From assembly GCA_963205105.1 (NCBI GenBank), contig CAUJJW010000327.1:1-64000 (forward strand): a stretch of 64,000 nt of DNA, written 5' to 3'. This DNA comes from Verrucomicrobiota bacterium. Its GTDB lineage: Bacteria; Verrucomicrobiota; Verrucomicrobiia; Limisphaerales; CAIMTB01. Below, in pieces: positions 2,653 to 64,000 of the stretch. The number at the start of each line of letters is the position of its first letter. Within the stretch, counting starts at the first letter, position 1. The notes beneath the pieces are model-generated. The model did no database searches, was not told the DNA's origin, and saw only the letters and a list, made by a program, of their open reading frames with translations. The position numbers were made by a program, and so were the translations under genes.

Positions 2653-2664
2653 CCGACGACCTGT

Positions 2665-20872: not shown

Positions 20873-20896
20873 GGTTTCGAGGCGAGGTGTCCGATC

Positions 20897-21892: not shown

Positions 21893-21934
21893 TCGTGAAC
21901 AGGAATCCGGCGCCTGGCGGCAGGGTCGAGGTTG

Positions 21935-22984: not shown

Positions 22985-23007
22985 GGTGGAGTGTTGCGAT
23001 GGTTAGA

Positions 23008-25005: not shown

Positions 25006-25011
25006 GAACCT

Positions 25012-26046
25012 CTAGATCGTCAGGTGAACCACGCGATTCCGGGCCGCGCTGTCGTAGGCGGCGAAGGTGAGTTGCAGTGTCTTGAGGTTGTCCCTGCCGG
25101 TGGTTTCCCCCGGACTCTGCCCTTGGAGGGCACCCAACAGATTCCGCAGACATGGCACCATGCTGGCTTGCGCGACGTCATAGCGCGGGTCCGCCCATGC
25201 GTAACGCGGCGGCGCGTGCCGTCGACTGTGGGTGCCCTTCTTGGTGGTCACCCTCAGCCAGTAATCGGCCCCCAGTTCAACGCTGCCCAGGGGGCCTTCC
25301 ACAAAGGCTTGGGTCTGCGGAAAGATTTCACGCTCCAGCGCCGTCTTCGCGTAGGCCATTTCAAGGATCACACTCGTTCGAGCCTGCCCCATGGCCAGCA
25401 GCACCGTGGCGACGTTTTCACCCTGAACGGCCGGCAGCAGGGTCCGATGCGTCTGGCAGTAGACCGAGCTCGCTTCCCCGAAACAGGCCCGCGCCGTGTC
25501 GAACAAGTGGACCCCGAGATCGGTCAGGATGAATCGCTCCAACTCGCGCAGAGCCGGCTGGTTGGCCCAGACATCGAAACCCGAGAGGAACGTGAAGCGG
25601 GCTCGAAACGGAGCGCCGATCGTTCCGGCCCGCAGCGTGTCGATCAACGCTCGCAACGGGGTTTGCCAGCGGAAGTTCTCGTGCACGAAGAACGGGGTTT
25701 TGGTCCGGGCGAAGGCCTCAACCATTGCCCGGGCGTCGGCCATGGACGACGCCATCGGCTTCTGGCAGATGCACGGCACACGATGTCTGGCGCAAAGGAG
25801 CGAGAGCGGCTTGTGACCTCCGACCTCGGTGATGTTGTCGACAAAGTCAGGTTGAACCTCGCGCAGCAATTTTTCAGGGTCGTCATAGACGGCGGGCACG
25901 CCCATGTCGCGGGCAAAGGCCTCCGCCTTGCCCGCCGACCGATTGTAGATCGCCACGCATTCGGTGCCGCCGCATTCGCGCCAGGCGGCGAGTTGCACGC
26001 GCGCCCAAAAGCCGGCGCCGAAGATGGCGAAGCGGAGGGGTTTCAT
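25012..26046 (-). CDS. apsD: Gfo/Idh/MocA oxidoreductase, putative D-apiose dehydrogenase
   Basis: The 344-residue protein has an N-terminal Rossmann fold (RFAIFGAGFWARVQLAAWRE) and the Gfo/Idh/MocA catalytic lysine in CICQKPMA (K96; usually EKP, here QKP). It also has the C-terminal domain helix with DLGVHLFDTAR, whose histidine and aspartate assist hydride transfer. D-apiose dehydrogenase belongs to this family and oxidises D-apiose to D-apionolactone with NAD+. Pathway context makes that the best assignment, with other sugar or inositol dehydrogenases as alternatives. It is 6 bp upstream of the lactonase gene and 124 bp downstream of the TIM-barrel gene; that gap is the longest within the metabolic part of the operon. 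Confidence 0.75.
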   Translation of the reverse strand: MKPLRFAIFGAGFWARVQLAAWRECGGTECVAIYNRSAGKAEAFARDMGVPAVYDDPEKLLREVQPDFVDNITEVGGHKPLSLLCARHRVPCICQKPMASSMADARAMVEAFARTKTPFFVHENFRWQTPLRALIDTLRAGTIGAPFRARFTFLSGFDVWANQPALRELERFILTDLGVHLFDTARACFGEASSVYCQTHRTLLPAVQGENVATVLLAMGQARTSVILEMAYAKTALEREIFPQTQAFVEGPLGSVELGADYWLRVTTKKGTHSRRHAPPRYAWADPRYDVAQASMVPCLRNLLGALQGQSPGETTGRDNLKTLQLTFAAYDSAARNRVVHLTI

Positions 26047-26169
26047 AGGCTGAGGTCGAAAGCAGCTGGCTGTTGGATCAGTGAGTAGGCTGCAGACTTT
26101 TCCGCCGGCGCCCGGAACGAGCAGCCGCGCAGAACACCATGGAGGAGGTTTGGCATCGCAGGGGGCTTC

Positions 26170-26991
26170 TTAACGGGCAGGCAGGCATTGGCGGAGGTAC
26201 CGGACACCTTCCTCCGCCCAGGCGTGTTCACGGAGGATCGTCTCCTCCAGGTTTTTGGCGGGCGGCACCCAGTTCTCGAGGATCAGGTTGAATCGGTGAA
26301 GGCTCGACGCCAACTGGTCGAGCAACCACGGGACCTCGAGTCGGCCACGACCGGCAGGACACCCTTCCAGGACGAAGCCCATGCGATGACTCATGCGGCG
26401 AATGGTGAAGTCCTTGACGTGCAGGCAGAGGGTGAATTCGGCAAGGTTTTGAACGACCGTTTGCGGGCCTTCCATCGCGCCAAAGGAGTTCACCGTATCG
26501 AGGCAAATGCCCACCCAGCTGGGGCCGAGCTCTTGAACGATCCAAGCCAGGGTATCGCTGGAGAACCGATCATGGTTTTCGATGGCCAGGCGCACATCCG
26601 CCGCCATGAAGTCCGGCAGGACGGCCCGCAGACGTGCCACCACTTCGTCCGCGCTGGGTTCATCGCCCGGGCTGTCCACCACGACACGAAGAAACGAGCA
26701 GCCGAACCGGCGTGCCAAACCGAGATAGAGCCGCAGATGGTCCGCCGCGATTCCCTGCGTACCGAGTTCGACGGCGATATTCGCGGCACGGGATCGGGCT
26801 TCAAACCGATCGAGATCCGCAGGTGACAGTTGAGCCAGCGGCAGATTGTCGCACACCTGGATGAGCCCTACTCCCAGCCGTTCTGCTTCGTCCAGCAGGC
26901 CCATGGCGTTCATCGGGACCACGGGCAGATGACCCGGAACCCCGATGGACCAAGCATACGCGTAAGAACCAAGTCCGATGTGCATGGTCAT
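26170..26991 (-). CDS. oiaC: Xylose-isomerase-like TIM barrel protein, putative 3-oxo-isoapionate decarboxylase
   Basis: The 273-residue sugar phosphate isomerase/epimerase-type barrel starts HIGLGSYAYAWSIGVPGH. Probable metal ligands are visible as glutamates and histidines on successive strands: VRLAIENHDRF, GICLDTVNSFGA, LCLHVKDFTI and LILENW near the C terminus. In D-apiose pathways a barrel of this family (OiaC) decarboxylates 3-oxo-isoapionate to L-erythrulose. The start overlaps the stop of the oxidoisomerase gene by 4 bp. Because the operon also has the kinase/RuBisCO-like branch, this protein could instead be an epimerase or auxiliary isomerase; the specific name is moderately confident. 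Confidence 0.6.
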   Translation of the reverse strand: MTMHIGLGSYAYAWSIGVPGHLPVVPMNAMGLLDEAERLGVGLIQVCDNLPLAQLSPADLDRFEARSRAANIAVELGTQGIAADHLRLYLGLARRFGCSFLRVVVDSPGDEPSADEVVARLRAVLPDFMAADVRLAIENHDRFSSDTLAWIVQELGPSWVGICLDTVNSFGAMEGPQTVVQNLAEFTLCLHVKDFTIRRMSHRMGFVLEGCPAGRGRLEVPWLLDQLASSLHRFNLILENWVPPAKNLEETILREHAWAEEGVRYLRQCLPAR

Positions 26992-27860
26992 GGCTGGGTC
27001 GACTCCGGCAAATGGCCGGCCACGATCACCTCCACCTGTTCCCGCACGCTGGACGGTTCGAAGAGCTTGAGCCAGTCGTCACGGAAGATGCGCCGTTTGC
27101 CGTATTCGGCGATGAGTTTGGCGCCATCGGAGAATGGAAACCGCACCTGCCCAAATCCAATGCCAAGCTCGACCTTGATGTGACCGAACATGAAGTCTTC
27201 GGCCGCTTCGCGAGGCACGCCGCGCCGCACCGCCTCCTCCAAAACCTCCCGCAACGCCAGGACCAGGGCGATGCCACAGGTTTCGGCCATGGCGGGTTCG
27301 AGAATGGCCATTTGCTCGACGGTGATCCGATGCGACCGGGTCACCGGGCTGTAGATGTCCCGGGCAATCGCCTCCCCCAGCGCGTAGTGTTCCTCGGGTC
27401 CCTGCATCAACGCGCAGACAATCGCCTGCCGCGCGTGCGTCCCTCCGAAGAAGTCGTCCCGTTCAGGCTGGCTTTCAAAGTGGTCAAAGACGCTCGGATG
27501 GCAGGGATGGGAGACGAAATAGGTGATGTCCGGGCGCGCCGGCAACTCGCCAGCGTGTGCCGCCGCCGGGTCCAGGGTGATGACCAGCGTCCCGGGACGC
27601 AGCAAGGGCACCACTTCGCCCGCGATCTTCCCGAGCACGCGGTCCGGCAGCGCAAGAATCACGGCATCGGCGACGCGCAACGCCTCATCCCGCGACGTCG
27701 CCGTCACACCCCGCTCCCGCAACTGGGCCAGGCCACGTTCGCCGGTTTCGACATAGAGCATCCGGTAGCCAGCGTGGTCCCTGAGGTGATCGGTGACACG
27801 GCAGCCCATCTTTCCGCCGGCCCCCAGGAGGGCGAGAGTGAGTTTGGGTTTCTGGTTCAT
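26988..27860 (-). CDS. apnO: Putative D-apionate oxidoisomerase (6-phosphogluconate dehydrogenase/KARI-like)
   Basis: The start MNQKPKLTLALLGAGGKMGC (27860) is preferred over an upstream in-frame start because the glycine-rich nucleotide site must lie near the N terminus; this gives 290 residues. The Rossmann domain (LLGAGGKMG, DAVILALPDRVLGKIA) is followed by an all-helical C-terminal domain like that of phosphogluconate dehydrogenase (SHRITVEQMAILEPAMAETC, AAEDFMFGHIKVELGIGF). ApnO oxidises D-apionate and migrates the hydroxymethyl group, giving 3-oxo-isoapionate. The combination with the DUF1537 kinase and RuBisCO-like protein immediately upstream supports this. It is 56 bp downstream of the kinase gene and overlaps the next gene. 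Confidence 0.75.
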   Translation of the reverse strand: MNQKPKLTLALLGAGGKMGCRVTDHLRDHAGYRMLYVETGERGLAQLRERGVTATSRDEALRVADAVILALPDRVLGKIAGEVVPLLRPGTLVITLDPAAAHAGELPARPDITYFVSHPCHPSVFDHFESQPERDDFFGGTHARQAIVCALMQGPEEHYALGEAIARDIYSPVTRSHRITVEQMAILEPAMAETCGIALVLALREVLEEAVRRGVPREAAEDFMFGHIKVELGIGFGQVRFPFSDGAKLIAEYGKRRIFRDDWLKLFEPSSVREQVEVIVAGHLPESTQP

Positions 27861-27916
27861 GGTTGGCGTTTCATGACGTTGGATCTGAGGAATTCCAAGG
27901 TTGTCGGGGTGGGCAT

Positions 27917-29323
27917 TCAGGGGTCGGCCGGTTTTCCCTGCAGAACATCGAGGAAATAGCGGTCCCGACCCACCTGGCCACCCTTGAAGAGGAATTCGCG
28001 GCCGTCGGCGATGCGACCTTTGGCGTGGACGAGGCAAACCGGTCCCCCGGGCGCCATGGGCCCCAGGTACTCCAACGCCTCGACGCCCAGCGCCCGCGAA
28101 ACATGCATCGAGGTATCGCCGCCACAGACGACCGCACGGCGAAGCCCGGTGATCCGGAGCAATTCCTCCAGCACATGGGCCAGGAGATCCCCCAACCGGC
28201 GGCTGGTCGCCGCGTCCACCAGCCCACGCGACTGGCGCCGGGGATCCTCGGGACCCCGACTGGTATGCAGAATGACCGAGCGTCCGAGCGCGATCTGTCC
28301 GGCGGCGCCGGCGATGACCGACCGCGCCGGCTCCGATCCGGCAACAGTCTCGGGCGCCAGAGGAATCTCGACGATTTCGGGATTTCGGATCGCGTGCGCC
28401 ATCTGCCGATCCGTCACCGGCGAGCAGCTTCCCGAGACTGCAACCATCTGCTTCACGGGAGCGACGACACGAGGGAATGGCGGCTCAGCAAGCACCGGGG
28501 CCACGGCCGCGGCATTCATCGACGCCTTAGGACCTTCCGGACCTGAACTCCTGGCCCAATGCGCGGTCAACGCGTACTCCACGCCGCTGGAACCCACGAC
28601 AAACAACGGCCCATCCGCAGCCATCGCCTCCATCGCCTGACCGATCACCGGCAGATGCGCTTCCCTCAATGTGTCGAACAACACAATGGGTGCCGGCCCG
28701 GGATCCCCGGCCAACCAACGGGCACCTTCACCGTTCTCCAGCCTGAGGGCGTCCACCAATTCGACCGGCAGCGTTGTCTGTTCCGCCAGGATCCTTCGGA
28801 TATCCGCCTCGTTCATGGGCGTCACCGGGTGCCGGCTCATGGTGGGATGGCGATCCAGCCGGAATGGTTCGCTGTCGAGGCCCGAGCGGGCGAAGAGGTT
28901 GCCAAACACGACATAGCGGCCGAGCACCGGCGCACCCACCATCAACGGGGTGGGACGGTCCCCGAACACCCGGCGGCCGATGTCGATCGCACGACCGATG
29001 GAGCCGACGCCCGGCGAGGAGTCGAAGGTCGAACAAATTTTGTAGTGAACGATGGGCGCTCCGCTGGCCCTCAGCGCCTCAAAGGCCGCTGGCAGCTCCA
29101 ACTCCATGGCCTCCGGCGACAGCGTGCGCGAACCGCCCGCGATGCCCAACGCCCGCATCCCCGGAAATCGGGCCATTTGTTCCACAGACGGCGGCGCGAG
29201 AAACAGAACGGTTCGGAGGCCTGCCTTCGACAAGGCCTCCAGCACGTCAGTCGAGCCGGTGAAATCGTCGCCGTAATAGGCGAGACGGAGACCGTCGAGG
29301 CTTGGGTGACTGCTGGAGGGCAT
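27917..29323 (-). CDS. oiaK: Four-carbon acid sugar kinase family protein, putative 3-oxo-isoapionate kinase
   Basis: This is a 468-residue DUF1537-type kinase. The N-terminal domain starts with LRLAYYGDDFTGSTDVLEAL (D-D-x-T-G-S/A acid-sugar site) and contains IVHYKICSTFDSSPGVGSIG. The C-terminal nucleotide-binding domain contains MVAVSGSCSPVTDRQMAHA, then RRAVVCGGDTSMHVSRALGV (GGDT) and the ending CLVHAKGRIADGREFLFKGG. Members phosphorylate four-carbon and related acid sugars; OiaK phosphorylates 3-oxo-isoapionate at O4. The RuBisCO-like protein gene lies 43 bp upstream and ApnO 56 bp downstream, which are the enzymes after and before it in the pathway. The family assignment is certain and the substrate is inferred. 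Confidence 0.82.
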   Translation of the reverse strand: MPSSSHPSLDGLRLAYYGDDFTGSTDVLEALSKAGLRTVLFLAPPSVEQMARFPGMRALGIAGGSRTLSPEAMELELPAAFEALRASGAPIVHYKICSTFDSSPGVGSIGRAIDIGRRVFGDRPTPLMVGAPVLGRYVVFGNLFARSGLDSEPFRLDRHPTMSRHPVTPMNEADIRRILAEQTTLPVELVDALRLENGEGARWLAGDPGPAPIVLFDTLREAHLPVIGQAMEAMAADGPLFVVGSSGVEYALTAHWARSSGPEGPKASMNAAAVAPVLAEPPFPRVVAPVKQMVAVSGSCSPVTDRQMAHAIRNPEIVEIPLAPETVAGSEPARSVIAGAAGQIALGRSVILHTSRGPEDPRRQSRGLVDAATSRRLGDLLAHVLEELLRITGLRRAVVCGGDTSMHVSRALGVEALEYLGPMAPGGPVCLVHAKGRIADGREFLFKGGQVGRDRYFLDVLQGKPADP

Positions 29324-29365
29324 TTCAGCGCTGGAAATCGGAGAACATGGAGCTCACCCGCGGGA

Positions 29366-30634
29366 TCACCGTGAGCCTCCGAATCGGTGGATGGTTGCCA
29401 TCAACTCCGGATGCGTGGTCGCGTGTTCGGCCAGTGGGATCCCTTCGACCGCCGCCTGCCACGCCTGCTGCAACGCGCGCAGGCCTGCGGCCGGGCCCAT
29501 CGGATGCGCCAGAATCCCTCCACCCGCCACATACATCAGATCGGTGGTCCCGGTCCGGCGGTAGGTCTCCGGCGCCTGGCCGCCCCATTGTCCGGAGCTG
29601 ACGACGGGCATGGCCGTGTCGTCGGGACGGAACATTGGCGTGCGGCAGGCCTGGATGCTGCGCACGACCGAGTCGTCCGACTCCCAAAATTTGTTCTGCA
29701 GTCCGTTGACGTGGAGGTGATCCGCGCCAGCCAAACGCCAGAGCTTCTGCCAGGCCGTGTACTCAACGCCCAGGAAGGGATGACGGGCGTACATTCCCCA
29801 GCCATTGCGATGGCCATGAATCGGGATGGCGGAATGGCGCCGAAGTTCGAGCAACCCGGGCAATCCGACGCTGTGCAGGCTCACCATCACGCACGTGCCG
29901 CCAGCGGCGCACACGGTGTCATGATGCCGCAGCATGGCATCCAGATCGTCCGTGATGTTGAAGGCGTACATCACCTTCTTGCCGGTGCGATCGGCGAGGG
30001 TGTTGATCACGCGCATGACGGCGGCGACGCGTTCACGCAAGGAACAACTTGGGCCGTTGGCCTGAAGCTCGTCGTCCTTGATGAAATCAATGCCGGCTTC
30101 GCCCAACTCGCGAACCAGTTCGGCCGTCTGCTCCGGGGTGAAGCCGACGCTGGGTTTGACGATGGTGCCGAGGATGGGCCGGTCGTGAACTCCGGCCAGC
30201 TTCCTGGTGCCAGCGACGCTGAACTGCGGTCCCGGATACTTCTCGCCGAAGGCTGGGGGCAGATCGAGGTCCAGCAGCTTGCACCCGGTGTGATCGGACA
30301 ATTCGTAGAGATTGCCGCACACCGTGGCCACGAGCGTGGGCAGGTTGGCGCCAAGATTGGCCAGCGGGAATTCCAGGGTGATCTCGGCGCGGTGAAACTT
30401 TGCGAACTCGGCGCCACCTCGGGGTTGGCGGCCGCCCGGCAGGCTGGGTTGGTCAACCACCTCGAGGGGGTCGATCCGAAGAACCTTGGCGCGCGCCTGA
30501 GCCTTCAATGCCTCGGTCTCGCCCGGCACAGGCAGAAACGTGCCGGACGACTGCTCGCCTGCGAGCGTCTCCGCGACCTGCTCCAGCGGAAGGCAGGTCT
30601 CGATGCGATAACGGGCGAGAATGGCTCCGCGCAT
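29366..30634 (-). CDS. RuBisCO-like protein, putative 3-oxo-isoapionate-4-phosphate processing enzyme
   Basis: The start at 30634 (MRGAILARYRIE) gives 422 residues and sits 9 bp after the upstream stop, with AAGGA nearby; an in-frame ATG 45 bp upstream would overlap that gene. The N-terminal alpha/beta domain is followed by a RuBisCO barrel with PILGTIVKPSVG (K160, the K175 counterpart) and GIDFIKDDELQ (K186, D188, E189, the carbamylated Lys and Mg ligands). IPIHGHRNGWG supplies the active-site His region. In D-apiose pathways two RuBisCO-like proteins act on 3-oxo-isoapionate 4-phosphate, a decarboxylase (OiaX) and a transcarboxylase/hydrolase (OiaT). Sequence by eye does not separate them, so no symbol is given. 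True CO2-fixing RuBisCO is unlikely: no small subunit or phosphoribulokinase is present. Confidence 0.82.
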   Translation of the reverse strand: MRGAILARYRIETCLPLEQVAETLAGEQSSGTFLPVPGETEALKAQARAKVLRIDPLEVVDQPSLPGGRQPRGGAEFAKFHRAEITLEFPLANLGANLPTLVATVCGNLYELSDHTGCKLLDLDLPPAFGEKYPGPQFSVAGTRKLAGVHDRPILGTIVKPSVGFTPEQTAELVRELGEAGIDFIKDDELQANGPSCSLRERVAAVMRVINTLADRTGKKVMYAFNITDDLDAMLRHHDTVCAAGGTCVMVSLHSVGLPGLLELRRHSAIPIHGHRNGWGMYARHPFLGVEYTAWQKLWRLAGADHLHVNGLQNKFWESDDSVVRSIQACRTPMFRPDDTAMPVVSSGQWGGQAPETYRRTGTTDLMYVAGGGILAHPMGPAAGLRALQQAWQAAVEGIPLAEHATTHPELMATIHRFGGSR

Positions 30635-30642
30635 GGATCGCT

Positions 30643-31461
30643 CTAATCCTTGTAGGGCGCGACGTGGGTGCGAAACCACTCATGATCCGCAGCCTGGGTT
30701 CGCGGCAACCACGCGATGTTGTTGGGAATCACCAGGCTGCCCGTGCGTTTCACCTGATCGACGCCCGCGCTCCGCCATTTTTTGGTTTCGGCGTGACCAT
30801 CGACGAAACTGAAGCCGGCAGATCTCCCGTGACGGCCGGAGGGGGCGTCGAGCCAGGGGTTGTTGTTGTGTTTGCGCAGGTCATCGAAAGGGAAGAAGTG
30901 GGAGTCATTGATGCTGTTCTCGTGCTCGTCGATGAGGTTGAAGATGGCGGAGGGTCCTGGAGCTCCGATCAACGTGAGCTTCGGCATGGTGAGGTAGGCA
31001 TTCTTGTGGTTCACCACCCAGGGGGTCTCCGTTTCGCCGATGAATGCGTTCATGGCATAGCTTCGATTGCGAAGAACGGTTCGATTCCCCAGCCGCAATC
31101 CCGCGATATCCGCCGGGCAATGGAAGATCTCCTTCGAGGTGAGGTAAACCCAGGTGGGGCCATTGGTGATGAATCGATCGTTGGTGGCGTCGGCGGCATT
31201 CACCATGTCCCCTTCGCACCAAGCCGGGGCAACCCGCGACGCCATGGGGCCGAGGGTTTTGTCGTCGTTGTCCTGGGCATACAGATACCAGGCCAGCCCC
31301 AACTGTTTGACGTTGCTCATGCACTTGATGCTCTGGGCCTTCAGCTTGGCCTGACTCAATGCGGGGAGCAGCATGCTGGCCAGGATCGCGATGATGGCAA
31401 TAACCACCAACAGCTCGATCAAGGTAAAGCCGGGCTTCTTGGGAGCATGCCGGGGGTGCAT
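30643..31461 (-). CDS. Pseudopilin (prepilin-type N-terminal domain) at the head of the apiose operon
   Basis: The 272-residue protein has a basic leader and the type IV prepilin motif [20 protein letters not shown], with Gly before the cleaved Phe, then [20 protein letters not shown], a Cys-containing middle ([14 protein letters not shown]) and the H-X9-DG-like end [20 protein letters not shown]. This is the verrucomicrobial/planctomycete single-gene pseudopilin type, exported and anchored by its N-terminal helix. It stops 9 bp before the RuBisCO-like gene and must share its transcript. That suggests a surface or secretion role tied to growth on the same substrate, although these genes are scattered widely and could be passengers. 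Confidence 0.85.
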
Positions 31462-31514
31462 GCCATTCTCCTAACGCAACGCCTTCTCCCGGGCTTGAAC
31501 GCGCGGCTCGGATT

Positions 31515-32522
31515 CTAGGACGAAAACGACCCGCGCCCGGCACCTCGCGACTCCCGACCGAGACCCGCCCGGTGCTGGCTCGGGGTCCGGCCAAACGATT
31601 CGCGGAAGCGGCGGTCAAAATGGCTCTGGTCGCTGAATCCCAGGCGAAGTGCGATTCCGGCAATAGACTCCCCGGTTTCCTCCAACAATTCGACCGCGTG
31701 CGCCATTCGGACGTGGTTCAGGTAGCGTCGCAGGGTCATTCCCGACGCCCGCTTGAAGATCCGGCCGAAGACGGCACGGCTCATGCCGCAGAGCGCCGCC
31801 GCCTCGCCGAGGGCAATCGGATCGGCATAATGCTCGCGCACATGGTCGAAGAGCGGCTTGAGCCGACTCACCTGCTTCTGACGGCGCAGAAGTTCAACCC
31901 GATCGAGAGCCGAGTCCCGGAACTCGCGGATCAGGACGTGGAGCAGCACCAGGAGCCACGCTTTGCAGCCCGCCTCGCGATGCGCTGATGGCCCCGCGAA
32001 ACAACAAGCCACCAATTGGCGAAGGGCATCATGCGCCTCCCCCGCCAGAGGGGAAATCGCCCGCAAAACTTGCAGGCGCCCCTCGGACTTCCGGAAGAAG
32101 GGAACAAGAAAGGCACTATCCGCCGGAGGGCAACCGGGCGCGAACACGCACTCCGGGAGGAACGAGATCACCAACACCCGCGTGTTGAGTCCGGGGATCT
32201 CCACGGCGCCGTGGGGCTTGAGATGATCCACCACAAGAACGTCTCCCGCCTTCAGGTCCACCACCAACCCGCCCATGGACTCCCGCATCGGCCCGTCCAG
32301 GGGCACCAGCAACTCGAGCCGCTCATGCCACGTGAGTCGCCGCGTGACCTCCCCTTCGCGCAAATGAAAAAGACTCACGGCGAAGGGAAACGAAGCCGGC
32401 AACTCCAGGGCATGCCGTCCCTTCGAGTCGAGCAGGTGCGTGATCTCGTGGGGACGGAACTTTAGTCCGTCTGCGATCGAACGCAGGCGCTCCAAGGGTG
32501 ATTGGGGTACGGCTTCAGCCAT
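31515..32522 (-). CDS. AraC family transcriptional regulator
   Basis: The 335-residue protein has an N-terminal cupin-type sensor domain (LRLTWHERLELLVPL-like TWHERLELLVPLDG; GDVLVVDHLKPHGAVEIPGL). Its C-terminal double helix-turn-helix comprises ADPIALGEAAALCGMSRAVF, FGRIFKRASGMTLRRYLNHV and the second HTH GIALRLGFSDQSHFDRRFRE. It is 54 bp upstream of the pseudopilin gene on the same strand and is probably the local regulator of the sugar operon, with the sugar or an early intermediate as effector. Whether it activates or represses is not evident. The tail after ~310 is Arg/Ser-rich and poorly conserved. Confidence 0.88.
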   Translation of the reverse strand: MAEAVPQSPLERLRSIADGLKFRPHEITHLLDSKGRHALELPASFPFAVSLFHLREGEVTRRLTWHERLELLVPLDGPMRESMGGLVVDLKAGDVLVVDHLKPHGAVEIPGLNTRVLVISFLPECVFAPGCPPADSAFLVPFFRKSEGRLQVLRAISPLAGEAHDALRQLVACCFAGPSAHREAGCKAWLLVLLHVLIREFRDSALDRVELLRRQKQVSRLKPLFDHVREHYADPIALGEAAALCGMSRAVFGRIFKRASGMTLRRYLNHVRMAHAVELLEETGESIAGIALRLGFSDQSHFDRRFRESFGRTPSQHRAGLGRESRGAGRGSFSS

Positions 32523-37231: not shown

Positions 37232-37284
37232 ATTCCGGGGGGCGGGACGCCCCCCTCTACGGCAGGCGAGACGCCCGCCGCTAC
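37232..37284 (-). repeat. GC-rich double-hairpin repeat, copy A
   Basis: This is the reverse-oriented copy of the element found four times at 50.8-52.2 kb. The consensus in forward sense is GTAGCGGCGGGCGTCTCGCC followed by TGCCGTAGAGGGGGGCGTCC and CGCCCCCCGGAAT. Two short self-complementary arms are present, GGCGGGCG/CGCCTGCC and GGGGGGCG/CGCCCCCC. It lies between the redox operon end and the SRPBCC gene start. Confidence 0.85.
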
Positions 37285-38900
37285 CGGCAACCGTGGCCGT
37301 GGTTCGAGCACCCCCAAAAGGCGTCGGTCGGCGCTGCCACTTCGATGGCCCCGGTCGGACAGGCTTCCGCACATTCCGCCGCCACCACCTGGAGGCCGCG
37401 CTCGAATGTCTCATCCAGCGGCGCCGCCACCCGCACCTCGAAGCCGCGCCCGACGAAGGTCAGACCCAGCGGTTCCGCCGACTCCGACGCGATCTTCACG
37501 CAGATGCCGCACAGGATGCATTTGCCGGGTTCGAAAAGCACCCGTCCCGGATGTCGATGCTGCTCGAAGGCCCGGCGCTGCCGCGGGAAGCGTCCGAACT
37601 CGGCGCCGTACACCTGAGAATAATGCTGCAACCGACAGTCCCCGGCCGCCCGACAGTCGCAGTGCAGGCAGCGCGCGGATTCGTGGGCGGCCTCCGAAGG
37701 ATCGAAGCCGACACCCCCACCCGACTTGGGCGTCACCCGAGGCTCGGGGCTGGCTCCCGCACGAAACAAATGCAGCTCCGGCTTCTCCAGGCGGCCCATG
37801 ACACTCGAGAACGGTTTTGGCGCCTTGCGCGGATCGTGACCCGCCAGGAATTCCCCGATGGCTTCGGCCGCCATCTGTCCTTCCGCCATCGCCTTCACCA
37901 ACTGCTTCACCGGCCGCACCGCGCTGCCGGCTGAAAACACCCGTTCCACACTGGTGAGGAAGGCGTCGGCCCGCACGATTTTCACCCCGGCCACCGTCAT
38001 GGTAACGCCCAACGCCTCACCGTCCGCCGCCGTCATCTCACCCGCCGCCAGAAACACCGCGTCGAATTCGGCCAGCAAGGAGGTCATGGGAATGTCCCTG
38101 CCCACCAAGATTCCGGAACGGAACTCGATTCCCATCCGTTTCAGATCACGAATCTCGGCTTCCAGAACGGCAGGTTCTAAACGGCCGGCCTCCACTTCCC
38201 GGCGCAACGACCCACCGGGTGTTTCGGCACGGTCCCAGACAACACACGCATGCCCGTTGCGCATCAGTTCATAGGCGGCCGCCAATCCCGTCGGACCCGC
38301 CCCGACCACCGCCACGCGCTTGCCGGTCGCCGGCTTCCGCGGGGCCAGGTAAGGCTCGGCGCGGCTCTGGTTGGTGTCGGCAACGAACCGTTCCACCTCT
38401 CGGATCGCCGCGGCGCTGTCGCACGCCGTTCGTCGACATCCGTTCTCGCAGGGCCGGTGGCACATCCTTCCCAGCACGGCCGGCAGCGCCAGCGCCGCGC
38501 GCACCGTGGCCGCGGCTTCCTCGGGCCTGCCCAACTGCACCTGACGCAGCATCTGCGGAATGTTCAGGCCCAGCGGGCAGATTCGAACGCAGGGCGACAG
38601 GCAATCTCCGACATGATCGCTCAAGAGCAGTTCGAGCGCGGAACGTCGCAGGTCATGGACCTCGGGCGTTTCACTCTCCACGACCATGCCCGCCACCGCC
38701 TTCATGCCGCAGGAGGGAACCACGGATGTCCGGCCGTTGAACCGCAGTTTGACGACGCAGACCAGGCAGGAGGTCATCGGCCCGCAACGTTCGAGGTAAC
38801 AGAGCGTCGGGATGTCGATCCCCAACTGGCGGGCACCGTCGAGAATGGTTTTGCCCTCCTCAATCTCCACCTCCCGGCCGTCAATGGTGATGGGTATCAT
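37281..38900 (-). CDS. GltD-like FAD oxidoreductase with NuoG-like ferredoxin domains (diaphorase partner)
   Basis: The start at 38900 is supported by GGAGG 4 bp upstream and by the [2Fe-2S] domain beginning at once. It gives 539 residues; an earlier ATG would overlap the previous gene further. Order of domains: NuoG-like [2Fe-2S] (CYLERCGPMTSCLVCVVKL), a GltD-type N-terminal Fe-S region (CLSPCVRICPLGLNIPQML; GRMCHRPCENGCRRTACDSA), FAD/NAD(P) domains (VAVVGAGPTGLAAAYELMRN; VFSAGSAVRPVKQLV), then C-terminal cysteine clusters CLHCDCRAAGDC, KCILCGICVK and CAEACPTGAIEV. It resembles glutamate-synthase small subunits used as electron-transfer modules beside NuoEF-type diaphorases. It ends the redox operon and overlaps the NuoEF gene by 4 bp (38897-38900). 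Confidence 0.82.
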   Translation of the reverse strand: MIPITIDGREVEIEEGKTILDGARQLGIDIPTLCYLERCGPMTSCLVCVVKLRFNGRTSVVPSCGMKAVAGMVVESETPEVHDLRRSALELLLSDHVGDCLSPCVRICPLGLNIPQMLRQVQLGRPEEAAATVRAALALPAVLGRMCHRPCENGCRRTACDSAAAIREVERFVADTNQSRAEPYLAPRKPATGKRVAVVGAGPTGLAAAYELMRNGHACVVWDRAETPGGSLRREVEAGRLEPAVLEAEIRDLKRMGIEFRSGILVGRDIPMTSLLAEFDAVFLAAGEMTAADGEALGVTMTVAGVKIVRADAFLTSVERVFSAGSAVRPVKQLVKAMAEGQMAAEAIGEFLAGHDPRKAPKPFSSVMGRLEKPELHLFRAGASPEPRVTPKSGGGVGFDPSEAAHESARCLHCDCRAAGDCRLQHYSQVYGAEFGRFPRQRRAFEQHRHPGRVLFEPGKCILCGICVKIASESAEPLGLTFVGRGFEVRVAAPLDETFERGLQVVAAECAEACPTGAIEVAAPTDAFWGCSNHGHGCR

Positions 38901-41263
38901 CGAACCTCCACCGCCCCGTAGGGGCAGACGCGACGGCACGTGTCGCATTTGGTGCAGAGTTCCTGGCGGATTTCGTGACGCTCATAGGCCCGGAACGGGA
39001 TCGCGTCGACAGGACACTGCTGGGCGCAGAGCGTGCACCCCGTGCAGCGGTCGTTGATGTGGTAATGAACCAGCGCCGCGCATTTGCCCGACGGACAACG
39101 GCCTTGCAGGTGGGCTTCGTACTCGTCGCGAAAGTAGCGCAGTGTCGTGACGATCGGATTGGGAGCCGTCTTTCCAAGACCACACAGACTCCCCTGCCCC
39201 ACCGATTGCGCCAGCTTCTCCAGTTCACCCAAATGCTCGGGACGGCCCTTGCCGGCGCAGATCAATTCCAGGAGGTCCAGCATCCGGCGCGTTCCGACCC
39301 GGCAGAAGGTGCACTTGCCGCACGACTGATCCTGGGTGAAGCGCAGAAAATAGCGGGCGATGTCGACCATGCAGTCGGTGTCGTCCAGAACCACGAGCCC
39401 GCCCGAACCCATGATCGCGCCGACTTCGCGCAGGGACTCGTAATCCACCGAGGTGTCCGCCAGTCGTGCCGGGACACAGCCCCCCGAGGGTCCACCGATC
39501 TGCACCGCTTTCAAACGGCGACCCGCTGGAACGCCGCCGCCGATTTCGTCCACGATCTCACGGATGGTGGTGCCCATGGGCACCTCGATCAGACCGCCGC
39601 GCACGACCTTGCCCGCGAGGGCGAACACCTTGGTGCCCTTGCTCAACTTGGTTCCGATCGCGGCAAAGGCTTCGCCGCCCTTGCGAAGAATCCACGGCAC
39701 GCACGCCAGCGTTTCGACGTTGTTGATCAGGGTCGGTCGTCCCCACAACCCCGATTCGGCCGGGAACGGCGGACGCAGTCGGGGCATGCCCCGTCGCCCT
39801 TCAATGGAGGCGATCAGTGCGGTTTCCTCACCACAGACAAACGCGCCGGCGCCTTCCTTGATCTGGACCCGGAACGGATGGGGTGTTCCCAGCAACCGGT
39901 CGCCGAGCCAGCCGCGTTTCACCAGAAGATCGATGGCGGCCTGAACCCGTTTCACCGCCAGTGGATATTCCCGACGAATGTAGAAGATCCCCTCCGTGGC
40001 GCCGGTGGCCAGGGCCGAGATGGCCAGGCCTTCGATGATCCGGAACGGAAATGACTCCAGCAGCATCCGGTCCATGAAAGCCCCGGGATCGCCTTCATCC
40101 CCGTTGCAGATCACGTACTTGGTGTCGTTCGCCGTGCCCTGGACCATTTTCCATTTCGGTCCGGTCGGAAACCCCGCGCCACCGCGACCGCGCAGGCCGC
40201 TCTTGGTGATTTCCTCGATCACCCGATCGGCGGGGAATTCCACCAGGCAGCGGCGCAGTCCGGCGAAACCGTCGTGGCGCAGGTACTCCTCGAGATCCAG
40301 AGGATCGAGGTGACCGAAGTGTTCGGAGGCAATGTGAACCTGCCGCCCCAGAAACGCCTGGGCGGGGCCCGCCTTCATGTCCACCACGCAACGGGTGGTC
40401 GGACTGTCGTCCTGCTCCAACAGCACGCGGTCGACGGCCCGCGCCGCCGTGCGCGCCACCCGACGCCAGAGACTGGGAGGGCGGAAGTTCTCCAGAACCA
40501 ACTGTCGGGCTTCGTTCGGTTTCACCGCCGCGTAGAACCGGGACGCCTGCCCGGGCTGCACAATCTCCACCAGCGGCGTGCGATGGCACATGCCCACGCA
40601 ACCCACCCGTTTGACGTTGACGGAAACGCCCACCAACCGCGCCGCGCTGTGCAGTTCGTCGAATAGCCGGTCGCTGCCCTTCGCCATGCAGCACGAACCC
40701 AGGCCGACCCGGATCTCGGGACCGGTCACTTCGCCGCCTTCGCCTGCGGGATGCTCGGTGGATCCGCCCGCGTCCATCCCCTGGGCATGCGCTTCGAGGA
40801 ACTCCCGGATGACCGTCGGCACGTGTTCGGTCTCCACCATGCCTTTGGTCACCTGGTCGAGCTTCACCACCGGCGCCAGCGTGCAGCATCCCAGACACGC
40901 CACCGGTTCGATCGTGAACTGGCCTTCGGGGTCGGTGTCCTCACCCGCCTGGATCCCCAGATGCCGCCGCAACGATTCCTCCACCCGGTCCGCGCCCGTC
41001 ACGTGACACGCGGTGCCGTGACAGACGTGAACGATATGCTTGCCAACCGGCTTGTGCCGGAACTGGTCGTAGAAGGTCGCGATGCCCCAGATCTGCGCCG
41101 GGGTGATCTGACTTCGTTCGCAAACCCGCCGCAGCGCCGGCTCCGGAAGGTAGCGATAGTGTTCCTGCAATGCCTGCAGGATCGGAATCACCGCGTCCTT
41201 GGTCGACCCCAGCCGGTCCACCGTTTCATCAACAAATTGAAGGATCAGCGGGTCAGCGGACAT
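38897..41263 (-). CDS. NuoE-NuoF fusion, NADH-oxidising diaphorase subunit
   Basis: The start at 41263 (MSADPLILQ) gives 788 residues. Residues 1-165 are NuoE-like with the [2Fe-2S] cysteines in VCHGTACHVTG and VACLGCCTLAPV. A second thioredoxin-like ferredoxin domain follows (GLGSCCMAKGSDRL; RVGCVGMCHRTPLVEI), then NuoF with the NADH/FMN sites GLRGRGGAGFPTGPKWK and YVICNGDEGDPGAFMDR. The [4Fe-4S] motif CGKCTFCRVGTRRM...SLCGLG comes next, and finally two [4Fe-4S] ferredoxin motifs (CTGCTLCAQQCP; CTKCDTCRRVCP). The layout matches HndC/HydB-type NADH dehydrogenases of electron-bifurcating or hydrogenase-linked complexes. No hydrogenase or formate dehydrogenase is nearby. It overlaps the PQQ-like gene upstream by 11 bp and the flavoprotein gene downstream by 4 bp. 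Confidence 0.9.
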   Translation of the reverse strand: MSADPLILQFVDETVDRLGSTKDAVIPILQALQEHYRYLPEPALRRVCERSQITPAQIWGIATFYDQFRHKPVGKHIVHVCHGTACHVTGADRVEESLRRHLGIQAGEDTDPEGQFTIEPVACLGCCTLAPVVKLDQVTKGMVETEHVPTVIREFLEAHAQGMDAGGSTEHPAGEGGEVTGPEIRVGLGSCCMAKGSDRLFDELHSAARLVGVSVNVKRVGCVGMCHRTPLVEIVQPGQASRFYAAVKPNEARQLVLENFRPPSLWRRVARTAARAVDRVLLEQDDSPTTRCVVDMKAGPAQAFLGRQVHIASEHFGHLDPLDLEEYLRHDGFAGLRRCLVEFPADRVIEEITKSGLRGRGGAGFPTGPKWKMVQGTANDTKYVICNGDEGDPGAFMDRMLLESFPFRIIEGLAISALATGATEGIFYIRREYPLAVKRVQAAIDLLVKRGWLGDRLLGTPHPFRVQIKEGAGAFVCGEETALIASIEGRRGMPRLRPPFPAESGLWGRPTLINNVETLACVPWILRKGGEAFAAIGTKLSKGTKVFALAGKVVRGGLIEVPMGTTIREIVDEIGGGVPAGRRLKAVQIGGPSGGCVPARLADTSVDYESLREVGAIMGSGGLVVLDDTDCMVDIARYFLRFTQDQSCGKCTFCRVGTRRMLDLLELICAGKGRPEHLGELEKLAQSVGQGSLCGLGKTAPNPIVTTLRYFRDEYEAHLQGRCPSGKCAALVHYHINDRCTGCTLCAQQCPVDAIPFRAYERHEIRQELCTKCDTCRRVCPYGAVEVR

Positions 41264-43211
41264 CGTTCGTCTCTCCCTTCGCCGGCGCATTCGAAGCGCC
41301 AATGCAGTACAAGTTCCGGTCCGTGCGGATCAGGAAACGTCCACCGGCCACCGCCGGCGTGGCGTAGATGTCCTCGCCCATTTCAAACGCGGCGAGGGAT
41401 TCGAAGGCCCTGCCCGCCTTCACCACCATCACGTTCCCCGGTTGGCCAAACAGATACATCCGCTCGCCCACCACCAGCGGCGAGGCCTGGATTTCCAATT
41501 CAAATCCGTGGTCCCAGATCTTTTCACCCGTCCCGGCATCCCGGCAGATCAAATGCCCCTCGGTGTTGGCCGTGAACAGGAGATCGCCCACCACGGTCGG
41601 GCTTGGCACATCCGGAACCTCGTCGGTGAGCTTCCATTTCACCTGAGCGCTGGTGATGTCGCCCGTTCCCTCGGGAGCCAGCGCGGTCAGCGCATTCCCG
41701 GGGCTCGTCGCAAAGAGCCTGCCGCCTCCAAAGACCGGCGATGGCGCCAACTCGCCACCGAGGACATGCGCGCGCCAGATCTCTGCGCCGGTGGCCACAT
41801 CATGACCCATGAGCCAGGGATCGCCCGCGGTCACCACCTGTGCCTTGCCCCCGACCGTGATGACCAAGGGAGTCGTCCAACTGCCGCCTACCGGTCGTTT
41901 GGCGGTCCAAGCCATCTTGCCGGTCGCGGTGTCCAGCGCCAGCAACACGGATTTGCCGTCCTCGGCGGCACCTTGGTCGGCTTGGACGAGGAGACGGTCG
42001 TTCCAAACCACCAGCGAAGCAGCGTGCCCATAACCGTTCTCCTTGAAATCCAAACGCTGGTGCCAAACCAGGTTGCCCGCAAAATCCAACGCCCCCAGTT
42101 CACCCGTGGCGAACACGGCATACACCCGAACGCCATCGGTCGCCGGGGTGCTCGCCGCCTGCCCGCTCTGGTCCGGCGGATCGATCGCCGGTGCCGGAGC
42201 GTTGGTCGGAGTCACTGGCCGTGCCCACAAGGCCTCACCCGAATCCAGGTGGAACGCGAACACCCGTCGTTGCTCACGATTGCCGCCAGTCACGAATACC
42301 CGGTCGTTCCAAACCACCGGTGAGCTGTACCCCTTCAACGGAAGCGCTGCCTTCCACAGCACGCCGGTACCGGTTTTGGCGTCCCAGAGGAGTGGAACAT
42401 CGGACGCAGCCACCCGCCCGCTGCCATCCGCACCCCGGAATCGGGGCCAGTTCCTGGCCTGTTCATCCAGAGTCGGCCCCGCCGAGACCGCCAGCACTCC
42501 GGTGACCACCCCCGACCCCACCGATTCCGGATGAGCCAAGGCCGCCACCGCCGTCTCGGGCAACCGTGGAAGACGCACCTTCCAGAACAACCCCATGCCG
42601 AGCATGGCCAGCACCCACACGCCCGTGATGCTGAACAAGGTCAGTCCGGCCCGCCGCGTCGTCATGTGACGGTCCGGCGCCGCCCAGACCACCGGCAAGC
42701 CATCCGAACCTGTGGATTTCGGCCGTGGATCGCTCAGCACGGACTCGCCCGCGGCCGTCGACGGCATCCGTCCAGTGCCTCCCCTGGCTGACCTGCCGGA
42801 CTCGCTCACCATGCGGGCGAGCATCACCAGCACGGCTCCACTGCCGAGCAACAGCCAGGCACCCATGCGATCCCGCTCCAGTCGGCGGAAGTAAAGCCGG
42901 CGAAGATCCTGGTCCAATTGTCGAACCGCGCCCTTCAGCGACTCATTCTTCGGGTCGGACAACAGGCTTGCCCGCGCCTTCGCCAGCTCTGGCGAGCGCC
43001 AGGGTTCTTCACGTGATTCGCGCAACTGCCCCGTCACCATCACCGCCGCCACGAGCAATAAAAATGCAGCGACCACATAGAGAGCCCGGGATCCCACGAT
43101 CGAACCCATCCCATTCCCATTTCCCCCAACCGACTTCCATGGCCACGTCGGACCGCCCGCCAACGGTGGCACTGCCGCCGGACCCGATGGTTTGGGGGCG
43201 TCCTCACTCAC
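41253..43211 (-). CDS. Membrane-anchored PQQ-like beta-propeller protein
   Basis: A GTG start at 43211 is chosen. GGGAGGC precedes it, it overlaps the polyferredoxin stop by 4 bp (GTGA), and the longer open frame upstream is only the antisense-register translation of that gene. The result is 652 residues. The N terminus has membrane helices (ALYVVAAFLLLVAAVMVTG; MGAWLLLGSGAVLVMLARM; LTLFSITGVWVLAMLGMGLF), then RNWPRFRGADGSGRVA and repeated tryptophan-docking blades such as GEALWARPV, GNLVWHQRL, GKMAWTAKR, GAEIWRAHV and GEKIWDHGF. This is the PQQ-dehydrogenase-like propeller without an obvious catalytic site, comparable to BamB-like or quinohaemoprotein-like folds. Its operon position suggests a periplasmic electron-transfer or assembly role. 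Confidence 0.8.
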   Translation of the reverse strand: MSEDAPKPSGPAAVPPLAGGPTWPWKSVGGNGNGMGSIVGSRALYVVAAFLLLVAAVMVTGQLRESREEPWRSPELAKARASLLSDPKNESLKGAVRQLDQDLRRLYFRRLERDRMGAWLLLGSGAVLVMLARMVSESGRSARGGTGRMPSTAAGESVLSDPRPKSTGSDGLPVVWAAPDRHMTTRRAGLTLFSITGVWVLAMLGMGLFWKVRLPRLPETAVAALAHPESVGSGVVTGVLAVSAGPTLDEQARNWPRFRGADGSGRVAASDVPLLWDAKTGTGVLWKAALPLKGYSSPVVWNDRVFVTGGNREQRRVFAFHLDSGEALWARPVTPTNAPAPAIDPPDQSGQAASTPATDGVRVYAVFATGELGALDFAGNLVWHQRLDFKENGYGHAASLVVWNDRLLVQADQGAAEDGKSVLLALDTATGKMAWTAKRPVGGSWTTPLVITVGGKAQVVTAGDPWLMGHDVATGAEIWRAHVLGGELAPSPVFGGGRLFATSPGNALTALAPEGTGDITSAQVKWKLTDEVPDVPSPTVVGDLLFTANTEGHLICRDAGTGEKIWDHGFELEIQASPLVVGERMYLFGQPGNVMVVKAGRAFESLAAFEMGEDIYATPAVAGGRFLIRTDRNLYCIGASNAPAKGETNDVR

Positions 43212-60970: not shown

Positions 60971-63900
60971 TCAGCGCAAAGCCGGAACCGAGATGGACTC
61001 CAGCAGACCCAGGCGCCAGGGAATTTGCCCGTAGGGTTTGCCGGCGCGATCGGAATCCAGGACGCCCTGGAACACCAACCGGAGCGAGTCCGGTTCGATT
61101 TCCAGGTGTTCATCCACGCCGGATCGCAGCAGTTCGCCGTGGCTGATCACGTCCGTCCAGCGAGGCGACGGTTGACTCACGTTCCTCATGGAAGCAAACG
61201 CCGGATCCCGTTCCGCCGCTTGAGGGATCCAGGGGCCTTCCAGCTGGTCGGCCACGAAGGATTTGAAATAGCGCCAGCCATGGCCGTCCTGAGCTTCAAC
61301 GAAGGTGAGGTAGCGGTTCATTCCCCGCAGCCGATAGGTGTGGCTCGCTTCGAAGATGTCGCCCTCGATCGCCAACACCGGCGGACTCCAACCCAGCGGA
61401 AAGCGGTCGAGGGCCGTCTCGGCGCGCCACATCTTCCCGTCGAGTGAGGTGTAGAAAAGGTGCGCCTTGCGCGTGTCGCAGATCACCCAGAAATCCAGCC
61501 ACGCCTTGGGCGCCGTCGATGGATCGGTCCACATCGGACGCAAGGGGCTCCACCCGCCGGGGTCCCCCACCTTCTTCGAGGTGGCGAAGGCCGGCTGATA
61601 CTGCGGCGTCCACGACGGATCCGAAGCCTGGCAGACCAGGTACCATTCCTGGCGGGGTGTGAAGAAGAAGACCTGTGGCGCGCAGAAGTATCCGGTGTGG
61701 CAATTGAGTATCTGGCGCGGAGCCGTTTGGGCCTCCGCCCACTCAGCAAAGGAGGTGTGAAGGATCGCATGACTCCGTCGGGTCCCGCGCACGGTACAGA
61801 ACAGGTGCCATCGGTCGTGATGCCTCACGACGGACGGGTCCTTCAGCGAGAGCCAGGTTTCCCCGTCGGTCGGGCCCGGAAGAAGGAGGGGGCCCGAGGC
61901 CTTCCACGCCCAGCCGTTGGTGGACCCCGGCCCAGAATCCGCCGCGGGAGGGGGTTGCCCGGGGGGATTTGCGAGACGTTCGAGCGCGAGCAGAGCCTCC
62001 TTCCGGACATCCTTCTCCGGATCGCGTGAAGCCACCTTCAGTTTCTCGACGGCCACCGTCGCTGCAGGTCCGATCCGGCCCAGCGCTTGGGCCGCGGCCG
62101 CCCGGACGACGTCGAAACGATCGTCGAGTCGGTCCATCAGGGGTTCCACCGCGTCGCGGGCTTGAGGGCCCAGTTCTCCCAGCTTCCATGCGGCTTCCGA
62201 ACGAGGTCCGGCCCAATGGTTGTGCAGCTCTTCCAGCAGGGCTTCCCAAGCCGTCCGGTTGCCGGGTTGAACCGTGAGCAGGGCGTGGGCCGCCCTGATG
62301 CGAAGGGTCGCCGACCGGTCGCGCAGCGCCTGGAGCAGATCCGGCGCCGCGTCCTTGCCACGGAGCTGCCAAAGCGCTTCGAGGCACGCGATCCTGTACC
62401 CCTCGTTGTCGTCCTGGAGGCCTGGGTTGAGACGCGGAATAATCTCTGAGTCAAACTTCACCAATCGTCCCAAGCTTTGGACGGCCCTCACCCTCACGGA
62501 CAAGTCCGACTCGGCCAATCCCCGTAACGCCAGGGCCAGCGCTTGCCGAGTCTCAGGAGCGATGCCGGCCACGGCCGAGATCACGACAATGCGCAGTTCG
62601 CGTTCCTCGTCGTCGGCGAGCGGGAGGATGAGCGGAAGGGCATCGCGGGCGGCAGGCCCGCAGGCGCCGAGAGCTGCGACCAAGTCTGCGATCTCGGACC
62701 GTGGTTGGCGTCCCCGGAGCGGCGGCTTTCCCAGATCCATCCGCTTCTGCTGCTCCAGGAGCCGGGCGCGGAGCTGTGCGGTCAAATTGGAAGCCACGCT
62801 CGGGTCCGGGCTTGCCAGGCGTTCGAGGGCGAGCACGGCGCCGGCAACGGGGATCCGCTGTTCGGCCATGGCAGCCGCGACTTCCGGCGCAGCATCGCGG
62901 GCGTCGGGCCCCATTCTCGATAAGGCACCGGCCGCTTCCGAGCACACCTGGGGATCCGAATCCGACAGGCGTTCCCTCAACCGTGGAATCGTGAGACGCG
63001 CTTCGGGTCCGATCATGCCCAAGGCGAGGGCAGCCATCGCCCTGGTGCCTGGGGTCGGATGCTGCAACAGGGTCGCGAGCTCCACCGCCGCCCGGCTGCC
63101 GGAGTCCATTCCGGCGAGGGTCATCGCGGCGGTTTGCACCAGGGTGAAGTCCGTTTCCCGTGCGACGACGCTGACCAGCGCGCGCACCGCGTCGTCGTCG
63201 CCGGGTGCCAACCATGGCAGCGATCTCACGGCGGCGGAGCGCACCGCAGGATCCGGATCACTCTGGACGAGTCGGAGAACGCCTCGAAGGGTGTCTGCCC
63301 CGGGTTCCTGGGCCGCACTCAGTCCCAGCACCGCGCCTTGGCGCACCGCCGGATCCGGACTGGCGATCCTGCCGAGGAGCTGTGATTCCAGATCCTTCGA
63401 CTCGAAGCGGATGCGTCGGAGCGAATGGGTCGCGCGATCCTGGATATCGGGATCCGCCCCCAGCAACGCGATCAGCTCGGGAACCGCGTCTTGGGCGGCA
63501 GGTCCGACCCACCCCAGCCGGCTCACGCACAGATCACGAACCTCGGGGTTGGGGTGCTTCAGCCCAGCCAGCAAGGCGGGGACGGCGGGTTTCCCCATCA
63601 CCGCCAGGGCGGAGGCGACATCCCTGCTCGCCCGCTGCATGGAGCGCGGCGTCCGGTTGGCATCTCCGGGCGGGTTCTCCATCAGTTTCTCGCGCAGGAA
63701 AGGCAAGGCGTCCTCCGCATCCGGACCGAGTTCGATGAGGGCCTCGATCGCGGATGCCTTTCCATTCCTGGCCGCCTGAATCAGCACGGGCACCGCCGGC
63801 TTGCCGATTCGGGCGAGCGTTTCCATGGCACCGTTGACGAGGGGCCAGTCACGGGACTCGATCGCCGCCAGCAATCCGGGCACCGCCTCCGCCCCCTTTT

Positions 63901-64000
63901 CCTGGAGGCGCGAAATCGCGACTTTGTAGGCCGGATAATCGCGGCTTCGCAGCAGTTCAATCGACTCCGAGACACCCTCGGCGGCCTGAACCGGGGTCGC
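60971..64000 (-). CDS. HEAT-repeat protein fused to a GH62-like alpha-L-arabinofuranosidase domain (5' end outside window)
   Basis: The minus-strand frame is open to the window edge, so the true start lies beyond 64000; the first visible residues ATPVQAAEG could be the end of a signal peptide. About 660 residues are HEAT/PBS-lyase-type repeats of ~35 residues with the pattern 'DP...R..A..AL..IGP.A...VP.L' (for example AVRQGAVLGLSAAQEPGADT and PGTRAMAALALGMIGPEARL). The C-terminal ~320 residues are a five-bladed-propeller glycosidase of GH62/GH43 type: LKDPSVVRHHDRWHLFCTVR, YLVCQASDPSWTPQYQPAF, PKAWLDFWVICDTRKAHLFY, GDIFEASHTYRL and SQPSPRWTDVISHGELLR. GH62 enzymes remove arabinose from arabinoxylan. 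Fusion with a long HEAT solenoid is unusual. Substrate attribution is by family only. Confidence 0.8.
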   Translation of the reverse strand, partial: ATPVQAAEGVSESIELLRSRDYPAYKVAISRLQEKGAEAVPGLLAAIESRDWPLVNGAMETLARIGKPAVPVLIQAARNGKASAIEALIELGPDAEDALPFLREKLMENPPGDANRTPRSMQRASRDVASALAVMGKPAVPALLAGLKHPNPEVRDLCVSRLGWVGPAAQDAVPELIALLGADPDIQDRATHSLRRIRFESKDLESQLLGRIASPDPAVRQGAVLGLSAAQEPGADTLRGVLRLVQSDPDPAVRSAAVRSLPWLAPGDDDAVRALVSVVARETDFTLVQTAAMTLAGMDSGSRAAVELATLLQHPTPGTRAMAALALGMIGPEARLTIPRLRERLSDSDPQVCSEAAGALSRMGPDARDAAPEVAAAMAEQRIPVAGAVLALERLASPDPSVASNLTAQLRARLLEQQKRMDLGKPPLRGRQPRSEIADLVAALGACGPAARDALPLILPLADDEERELRIVVISAVAGIAPETRQALALALRGLAESDLSVRVRAVQSLGRLVKFDSEIIPRLNPGLQDDNEGYRIACLEALWQLRGKDAAPDLLQALRDRSATLRIRAAHALLTVQPGNRTAWEALLEELHNHWAGPRSEAAWKLGELGPQARDAVEPLMDRLDDRFDVVRAAAAQALGRIGPAATVAVEKLKVASRDPEKDVRKEALLALERLANPPGQPPPAADSGPGSTNGWAWKASGPLLLPGPTDGETWLSLKDPSVVRHHDRWHLFCTVRGTRRSHAILHTSFAEWAEAQTAPRQILNCHTGYFCAPQVFFFTPRQEWYLVCQASDPSWTPQYQPAFATSKKVGDPGGWSPLRPMWTDPSTAPKAWLDFWVICDTRKAHLFYTSLDGKMWRAETALDRFPLGWSPPVLAIEGDIFEASHTYRLRGMNRYLTFVEAQDGHGWRYFKSFVADQLEGPWIPQAAERDPAFASMRNVSQPSPRWTDVISHGELLRSGVDEHLEIEPDSLRLVFQGVLDSDRAGKPYGQIPWRLGLLESISVPALR

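Follow-up and report, generated by a model that had tools for sequence, protein, structure and literature searches.

Enzymes of the GH62 family strip arabinofuranose from xylan, and some fungal members also act on arabinan or arabinogalactan (PMC4408175). In the member Abf62C, the catalytic triad of Asp55, Asp171 and Glu230 has been confirmed by mutagenesis (PMC4408175). The same source reports that alanine mutants of Tyr77 and Asn339 are inactive, that the D194A and Y226A mutations abolish activity on wheat arabinoxylan, and that D194A increases activity on pNP-arabinofuranoside. Tyr226, in the +2NR subsite, is described as the least conserved of the GH62 active-site residues (PMC4408175). 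UmAbf62A (4n1i among our aligned rows) has Asp194 and is cited as an enzyme that attacks arabinan or arabinogalactan (PMC4408175), so that the substrate of a GH62 enzyme is not deducible from residue 194 alone.

HEAT repeats are also known in combination with other domains. A HEAT/cytochrome c protein of the membrane-bound-dehydrogenase type has beta-galactosidase activity and no GH62 domain, as described (PMC5342196). Multi-module CAZymes occur in planctomycetes (PMC11131199). Among the literature matches listed, whose coverage lies mostly outside subscription journals, there was no report of HEAT repeats joined to GH62.

Here, we describe such a protein, designated HEAT-GH62, from a Verrucomicrobiota bacterium whose genome is assembled in 412 contigs. 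The DNA analyzed (the window) covers positions 1 to 64,000 of the 72,468-base contig CAUJJW010000327.1. The window holds most of the gene; the full frame starts at an ATG at contig position 64132, 132 bases beyond the window end, and encodes a protein of 1053 aa (MKSPAAP...). Its features are as follows.

60971..64000, minus strand: 3' part of the HEAT-GH62 gene, an open frame that reaches the window edge
Mostly outside the window, minus strand: putative signal peptide, RRLAVALLWLALAGVATPVQA followed by AEG (by eye)
61979..63961, minus strand: HEAT-repeat solenoid of about 660 aa (Pfam HEAT_2, 33-residue period)
61919..61978, minus strand: Pro/Gly/Ser-rich linker between the modules (from the sequence)
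61091..61909, minus strand: GH62 catalytic domain, Pfam envelope (Pfam, PDB sequence and model matches)
61838..61840, minus strand: Asp765 codon, equivalent to catalytic Asp55 of Abf62C (alignment; PMC4408175)
61493..61495, minus strand: Asp880 codon, equivalent to catalytic Asp171 of Abf62C (alignment)
61442..61444, minus strand: Leu897 codon, at the place of the +1-subsite Asp194 of Abf62C (alignment)
61349..61351, minus strand: Glu928 codon, equivalent to catalytic Glu230 of Abf62C (alignment)

The initial annotation had suggested looking for a signal peptide beyond position 64000. Extension to the ATG revealed a probable one: judged by eye, the N-terminus has a hydrophobic stretch that ends in GVATPVQA, directly before AEG, and secretion of the protein is likely. 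About 660 residues of HEAT repeats had been placed ahead of the catalytic domain, and this was borne out by the Pfam matches (HEAT_2, 4.8e-54 and 181 bits; HEAT, 99.5 bits; both above cut-off) and by a repeat period of 33 residues. At E <= 1e-5, 20 PDB sequences matched the HEAT part; most of them are designed alphaRep proteins of the HEAT type. It is helical in a whole-protein model of low confidence (pLDDT 50.2, folded without an alignment), from which the placement of the HEAT and GH62 modules relative to each other is not readable. Antisense to the HEAT part, on the plus strand, lies an open frame of 501 aa (window 62274-63779) whose existence is probably a side effect of the GC-rich codons.

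The C-terminal domain, previously labelled GH62/GH43-type, is firmly a GH62 domain, and the GH43 half of that label was rejected. Pfam Glyco_hydro_62 matched at 7.1e-35 and 121.1 bits against a cut-off of 22.1 (fragment residues 697-969, window 61091-61909); the domain probably extends past this envelope, to about 60983. A phmmer search against PDB sequences matched it to 5b6s at 4.2e-63. The model of the domain, built from 22 aligned sequences with a mean pLDDT of 88.1, has the five-bladed propeller fold. Compared with known structures, it gave Z values of 39.7-42.9 for eleven GH62 entries, 26.8 for 6cc7 and 25.1 for the best non-GH62 entry; these favour GH62 over GH43, and the Foldseek result agrees.

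Three GH62 enzymes of known structure served for comparison: 5b6s from Coprinopsis cinerea (Z 42.9, 38% identity), 4n2z (PaAbf62A; Z 41.9, 36%) and 4pvi (Abf62C; Z 40.6, 34%). The Abf62C numbering was laid on the 4pva fragment with an offset of 8, and 17 of 18 checked letters match the paper; the mismatches are position 306 and also Trp174, which was counted by hand. By alignment, all three catalytic acids are present (Asp765, Asp880 and Glu928), whereas their absence is what the initial annotation had said would refute its reading. HEAT-GH62 also shares with the three enzymes the equivalents of Lys54, Arg259, His303, Gln328 and Tyr338. It differs from them in having Leu at position 194, a deleted Tyr226 loop, His at positions 233 and 77, and Gly at 339, and in its N-terminal HEAT solenoid, which they lack. 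The Tyr77 to His and Asn339 to Gly changes are common among its relatives; since the corresponding alanine mutants of Abf62C are inactive, weak activity is possible. Across 87 aligned GH62 rows, columns D171, E230 and R259 are invariant, the D55 column has Asp in 79 rows and is gapped in the other 8, and H303, Q328 and Y338 are kept in 85 (the remaining 2 are gapped).

A maximum-likelihood tree, drawn from the midpoint, was built from these 87 rows, i.e., 83 relatives, HEAT-GH62 and three PDB fragments. GH62 matches were found in 92 of 93 loci (all except L021), and removal of 6 fragments and 3 repeats left the 83; rows L095 and L118 represent the same gene. Sampling is skewed toward Verrucomicrobiota and toward relatives of the HEAT-GH62 protein. 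The HEAT-GH62 domain falls inside a clade of 38 rows (support 100/99), which also holds 24 rows from Verrucomicrobiota, 11 from Planctomycetota, and one each from Poribacteria and Bacteroidota. The sister side (49 rows, support 100/99) includes actinobacterial rows and the three structures used, which between them represent both subfamily types of the literature (5b6s was assigned from its neighbour 4pva). The nearest neighbour in the tree is L026 from Phycisphaerae (64% identity, support 100/88). Together with L030 from Sedimentisphaerales (59%), this planctomycete protein has the same subsite changes as HEAT-GH62 and belongs to the same clade, but both are stand-alone GH62 proteins without HEAT, the domain following a short N-terminal start; in L026, it begins shortly after a signal-like start.

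The two sides of the tree differ in the substrate pocket. Position 194 is Asp in 49/49 rows outside the clade and is not Asp in 37/38 rows within it (Leu in 28, Asn in 5, Ala in 2, and His and Met in 1 each), L036 being the sole clade row with this Asp. The Tyr226 loop is deleted in HEAT-GH62 and in 36/38 clade rows, and position 233 is His in all 38 clade rows vs 2 of the 49 others. At position 195, D or N occurs in both groups alike (35/38 and 43/49), and this residue therefore offers no stand-in for 194. Given the absence of the +1 Asp and the loss of arabinoxylan activity in D194A and Y226A of Abf62C, a different acceptor is predicted: the +1 pocket is remodelled across the clade, which in nature probably uses an acceptor other than the plain xylan backbone. 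Thus, of the initial description as a plant-cell-wall glycosidase, the arabinofuranosidase family stands, and the label of an arabinoxylan enzyme is doubtful, with Leu in place of Asp194. Our guess is that HEAT-GH62 acts on terminal arabinofuranose in a non-xylan setting.

Among the fusions scanned individually, the partners in the clade are AAT (acyl-CoA:6-APA acyltransferase), penicillin amidase, pectate lyase and HEAT. Two planctomycete contigs carry a clade GH62 domain fused to an AAT domain (L027:4438-6918 and L028:4555-6924), and at L029:4507-6927 two adjacent ORFs resemble, by eye, the same pair in unfused form. In L120:1239-4565, penicillin amidase is joined to a clade GH62 domain, inside which an in-frame TAG ends the frame; in L119:4180-6732, the partner is a pectic acid lyase domain. 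The individually scanned esterase fusions (L008, L117, L118) and GH43 fusion (L005) all lie in the Asp194 branch. Tentatively, and at somewhat less than an even chance, we propose that the 38-row clade is a third, uncharacterised GH62 branch with an acceptor of its own, acting on arabinofuranosides that are not attached to plain xylan. Its substrates may be pectic side chains or small acylated molecules that carry arabinose; this reading fits the HEAT, N-terminal-nucleophile acylase and pectate lyase partners.

Fusion to a glycosidase had been called unusual, and the Pfam scan agrees: among 80 GH62 proteins (79 relatives and HEAT-GH62), HEAT occurs in HEAT-GH62 itself and in no other. This count covers 79 of 88 distinct relatives, with 6 fragments and 3 contig-edge ORFs omitted; at least 5 of the 79 (L005, L061, L096, L098 and L121) are truncated on the upstream side, where the contig or locus stops, and further GH62 matches of the order sample (open frames of 115-673 aa) lie outside it. 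A HEAT regular expression gave just 1 match in the HEAT-GH62 control, so its zeros were discarded and Pfam was used. Other models in the 80 proteins were ricin-type lectin (12), GH43 (6, some of which may reflect the related GH62 propeller), CBM2 (3), malectin (3), esterase (3), AAT (2), penicillin amidase (1), GH10 (1) and pectic acid lyase (1). GH62 matches occurred in 19/384 genomes of the class sample, 32/320 of the order sample and 11/387 of the phylum sample, and these samples overlap.

Within the genus, GH62 matches were found in 2 of 5 genomes, with no match in 3 of the 4 other than the source. The second, in G234, was considered as another HEAT-GH62 gene and rejected: it is a fragment of 76 C-terminal residues (47% identity) at a contig end, which hides the preceding sequence. 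A genus ortholog of the HEAT part was likewise not accepted, as the HEAT matches present in all 4 other genomes reached just 45.5 bits at best. Five long HEAT ORFs examined, one of them in the source genome, adjoin DUF1552/DUF1592-like genes (by eye).

The source genome itself has 79 HEAT_2 matches, several within one gene. From 18 HEAT regions, 16 long ORFs were scanned (L171 and L174 were left out); 12 contain DUF7133 (in one case together with ThuA), and the remaining 4 are M1 peptidase-HEAT, AAA-HEAT, TPR/cytochrome-type and HEAT alone. In the M1-family protein (L161:1209-4115), the peptidase comes first and the HEAT repeats follow. The DUF7133/cytochrome c proteins resemble HEAT-GH62 in that HEAT is joined to another domain, but this is a different enzyme-type domain, the HEAT part is shorter in those listed, and GH62 is absent. 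Joining of HEAT to enzymes is normal in this genome; GH62 as the partner is not.

We also examined the genes around HEAT-GH62. On its convergent side are a metallophosphoesterase/5'-nucleotidase-type gene and a sulfatase. Two further features are relevant.

L002:6198-7625 (contig 64197-65624), same strand as HEAT-GH62: CotH-type kinase gene, directly upstream (Pfam, PDB)
18207-32522 of the window, minus strand: sugar-use cluster

The sugar-use cluster encodes a sugar ABC transporter (binding protein, two permeases and ATPase), a Gfo/Idh oxidoreductase, a xylose-isomerase-like protein, an SBD_N/NBD_C kinase, a RuBisCO-like protein and an AraC regulator, a set that we take to be compatible with apiose or oxo-isoapionate use. 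HEAT-GH62 had been thought to complement this apiose operon. That proposal is not supported: some 28 kb separate the cluster (18.2-32.5 kb) from HEAT-GH62, and the genes identified among the ORFs scanned in between show no shared pathway.

Other loci on the contig are of separate interest. At window 37284-41302 (minus), a fused NuoE/NuoF-like flavoprotein-ferredoxin subunit lies beside an iron-sulfur pyridine-nucleotide oxidoreductase, an arrangement reminiscent of hydrogenase or dehydrogenase complexes. At window 632-4152 (plus), genes for a GmrSD_N protein, a RelA/SpoT-domain protein and an HsdM-type DNA methylase stand in a row, possibly a restriction or defence locus. An ice-binding-like protein is encoded near the contig end (L002:10252-11175).

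Taken together, we consider it slightly better than an even chance that HEAT-GH62 is a secreted exo-arabinofuranosidase that removes terminal arabinofuranose carried on something other than plain xylan while its HEAT arm positions it on another protein. The two-module enzyme would be exported, and its GH62 propeller would release terminal L-arabinofuranose by means of Asp765, Asp880 and Glu928, a triad assigned by alignment. The acceptor would be other than the plain xylan backbone, as suggested by the residue positions and the published mutants of another member. The HEAT solenoid, held on the Pro-rich linker, may serve as a protein-binding or a spacer arm; going by what HEAT repeats generally do, it could place the enzyme on a periplasmic or surface protein, and docking to a complex, as first suggested, is possible. 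The fusion would be recent and lineage-restricted, judging by its absence from the relatives scanned.

The protein might instead be an arabinoxylan arabinofuranosidase of the usual kind that carries its HEAT arm as an accessory; the +1 changes would then be neutral, and the enzyme would debranch xylan together with GH10 and GH43. GH62 is indeed described as xylan-debranching (PMC4408175), and GH10 and GH43 genes lie side by side on another contig of the source genome (C390), which makes xylan use plausible; with this pair and a weak GH28 match (25.1 bits vs a cut-off of 22.9), pectin is not favoured over xylan. However, the HEAT-GH62 gene lies outside the GH10/GH43 cluster, Asp194 and the Tyr226 loop, on which the arabinoxylan activity of Abf62C depends, are both absent, and the scanned esterase and GH43 fusions belong to the Asp194 branch and not to this clade. 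We regard this reading as rather unlikely. Far less probable is that the GH62 domain has degenerated or become weakly active and is retained on a HEAT protein for sugar binding. The changes at Tyr77 and Asn339 and an end branch of 0.47 vs 0.14 for L026 would fit this, but retention of the triad and of Lys54, Arg259, His303, Gln328 and Tyr338 speaks against it.

A functional pair with the upstream gene, e.g., a kinase that modifies the HEAT arm, is improbable, if a shade less so than degeneration. The CotH-type gene (Pfam 4.7e-59; PDB 5jd9, 6.4e-25; see PMC7821199 for background) has a lipoprotein-like start and is on the same strand, its stop 61 bases from the HEAT-GH62 ATG. Among the loci listed for the order were nine kinase relatives of 42-51% identity, but the pairing is not conserved: none of 10 ORFs scanned downstream of CotH relatives, in 9 of 14 neighbourhoods, contains HEAT (the other 5 met a contig end, had no ORF or fell outside the scan). 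Least probable of all is an assembly error in the metagenome-assembled contig. Such an error would account for HEAT being in no other scanned GH62 protein, and the genome is in many contigs; yet a single unbroken frame without stop or N crosses the junction, the linker is typical, and third-position GC is similar in the HEAT and GH62 halves (0.76 vs 0.79).

Both parts of HEAT-GH62 are of known kinds; what is new is their arrangement and the uncharacterised branch to which the catalytic domain belongs. Most descriptions of GH62 present it as an arabinoxylan family, and automatic labelling of members of this bacterial branch, which lacks the +1 Asp, as arabinoxylan enzymes may be wrong. HEAT-GH62 would also be a case in which nature has attached an enzyme to a scaffold repeat, and the fusion could help reveal the roles of the many secreted HEAT proteins in such bacteria.
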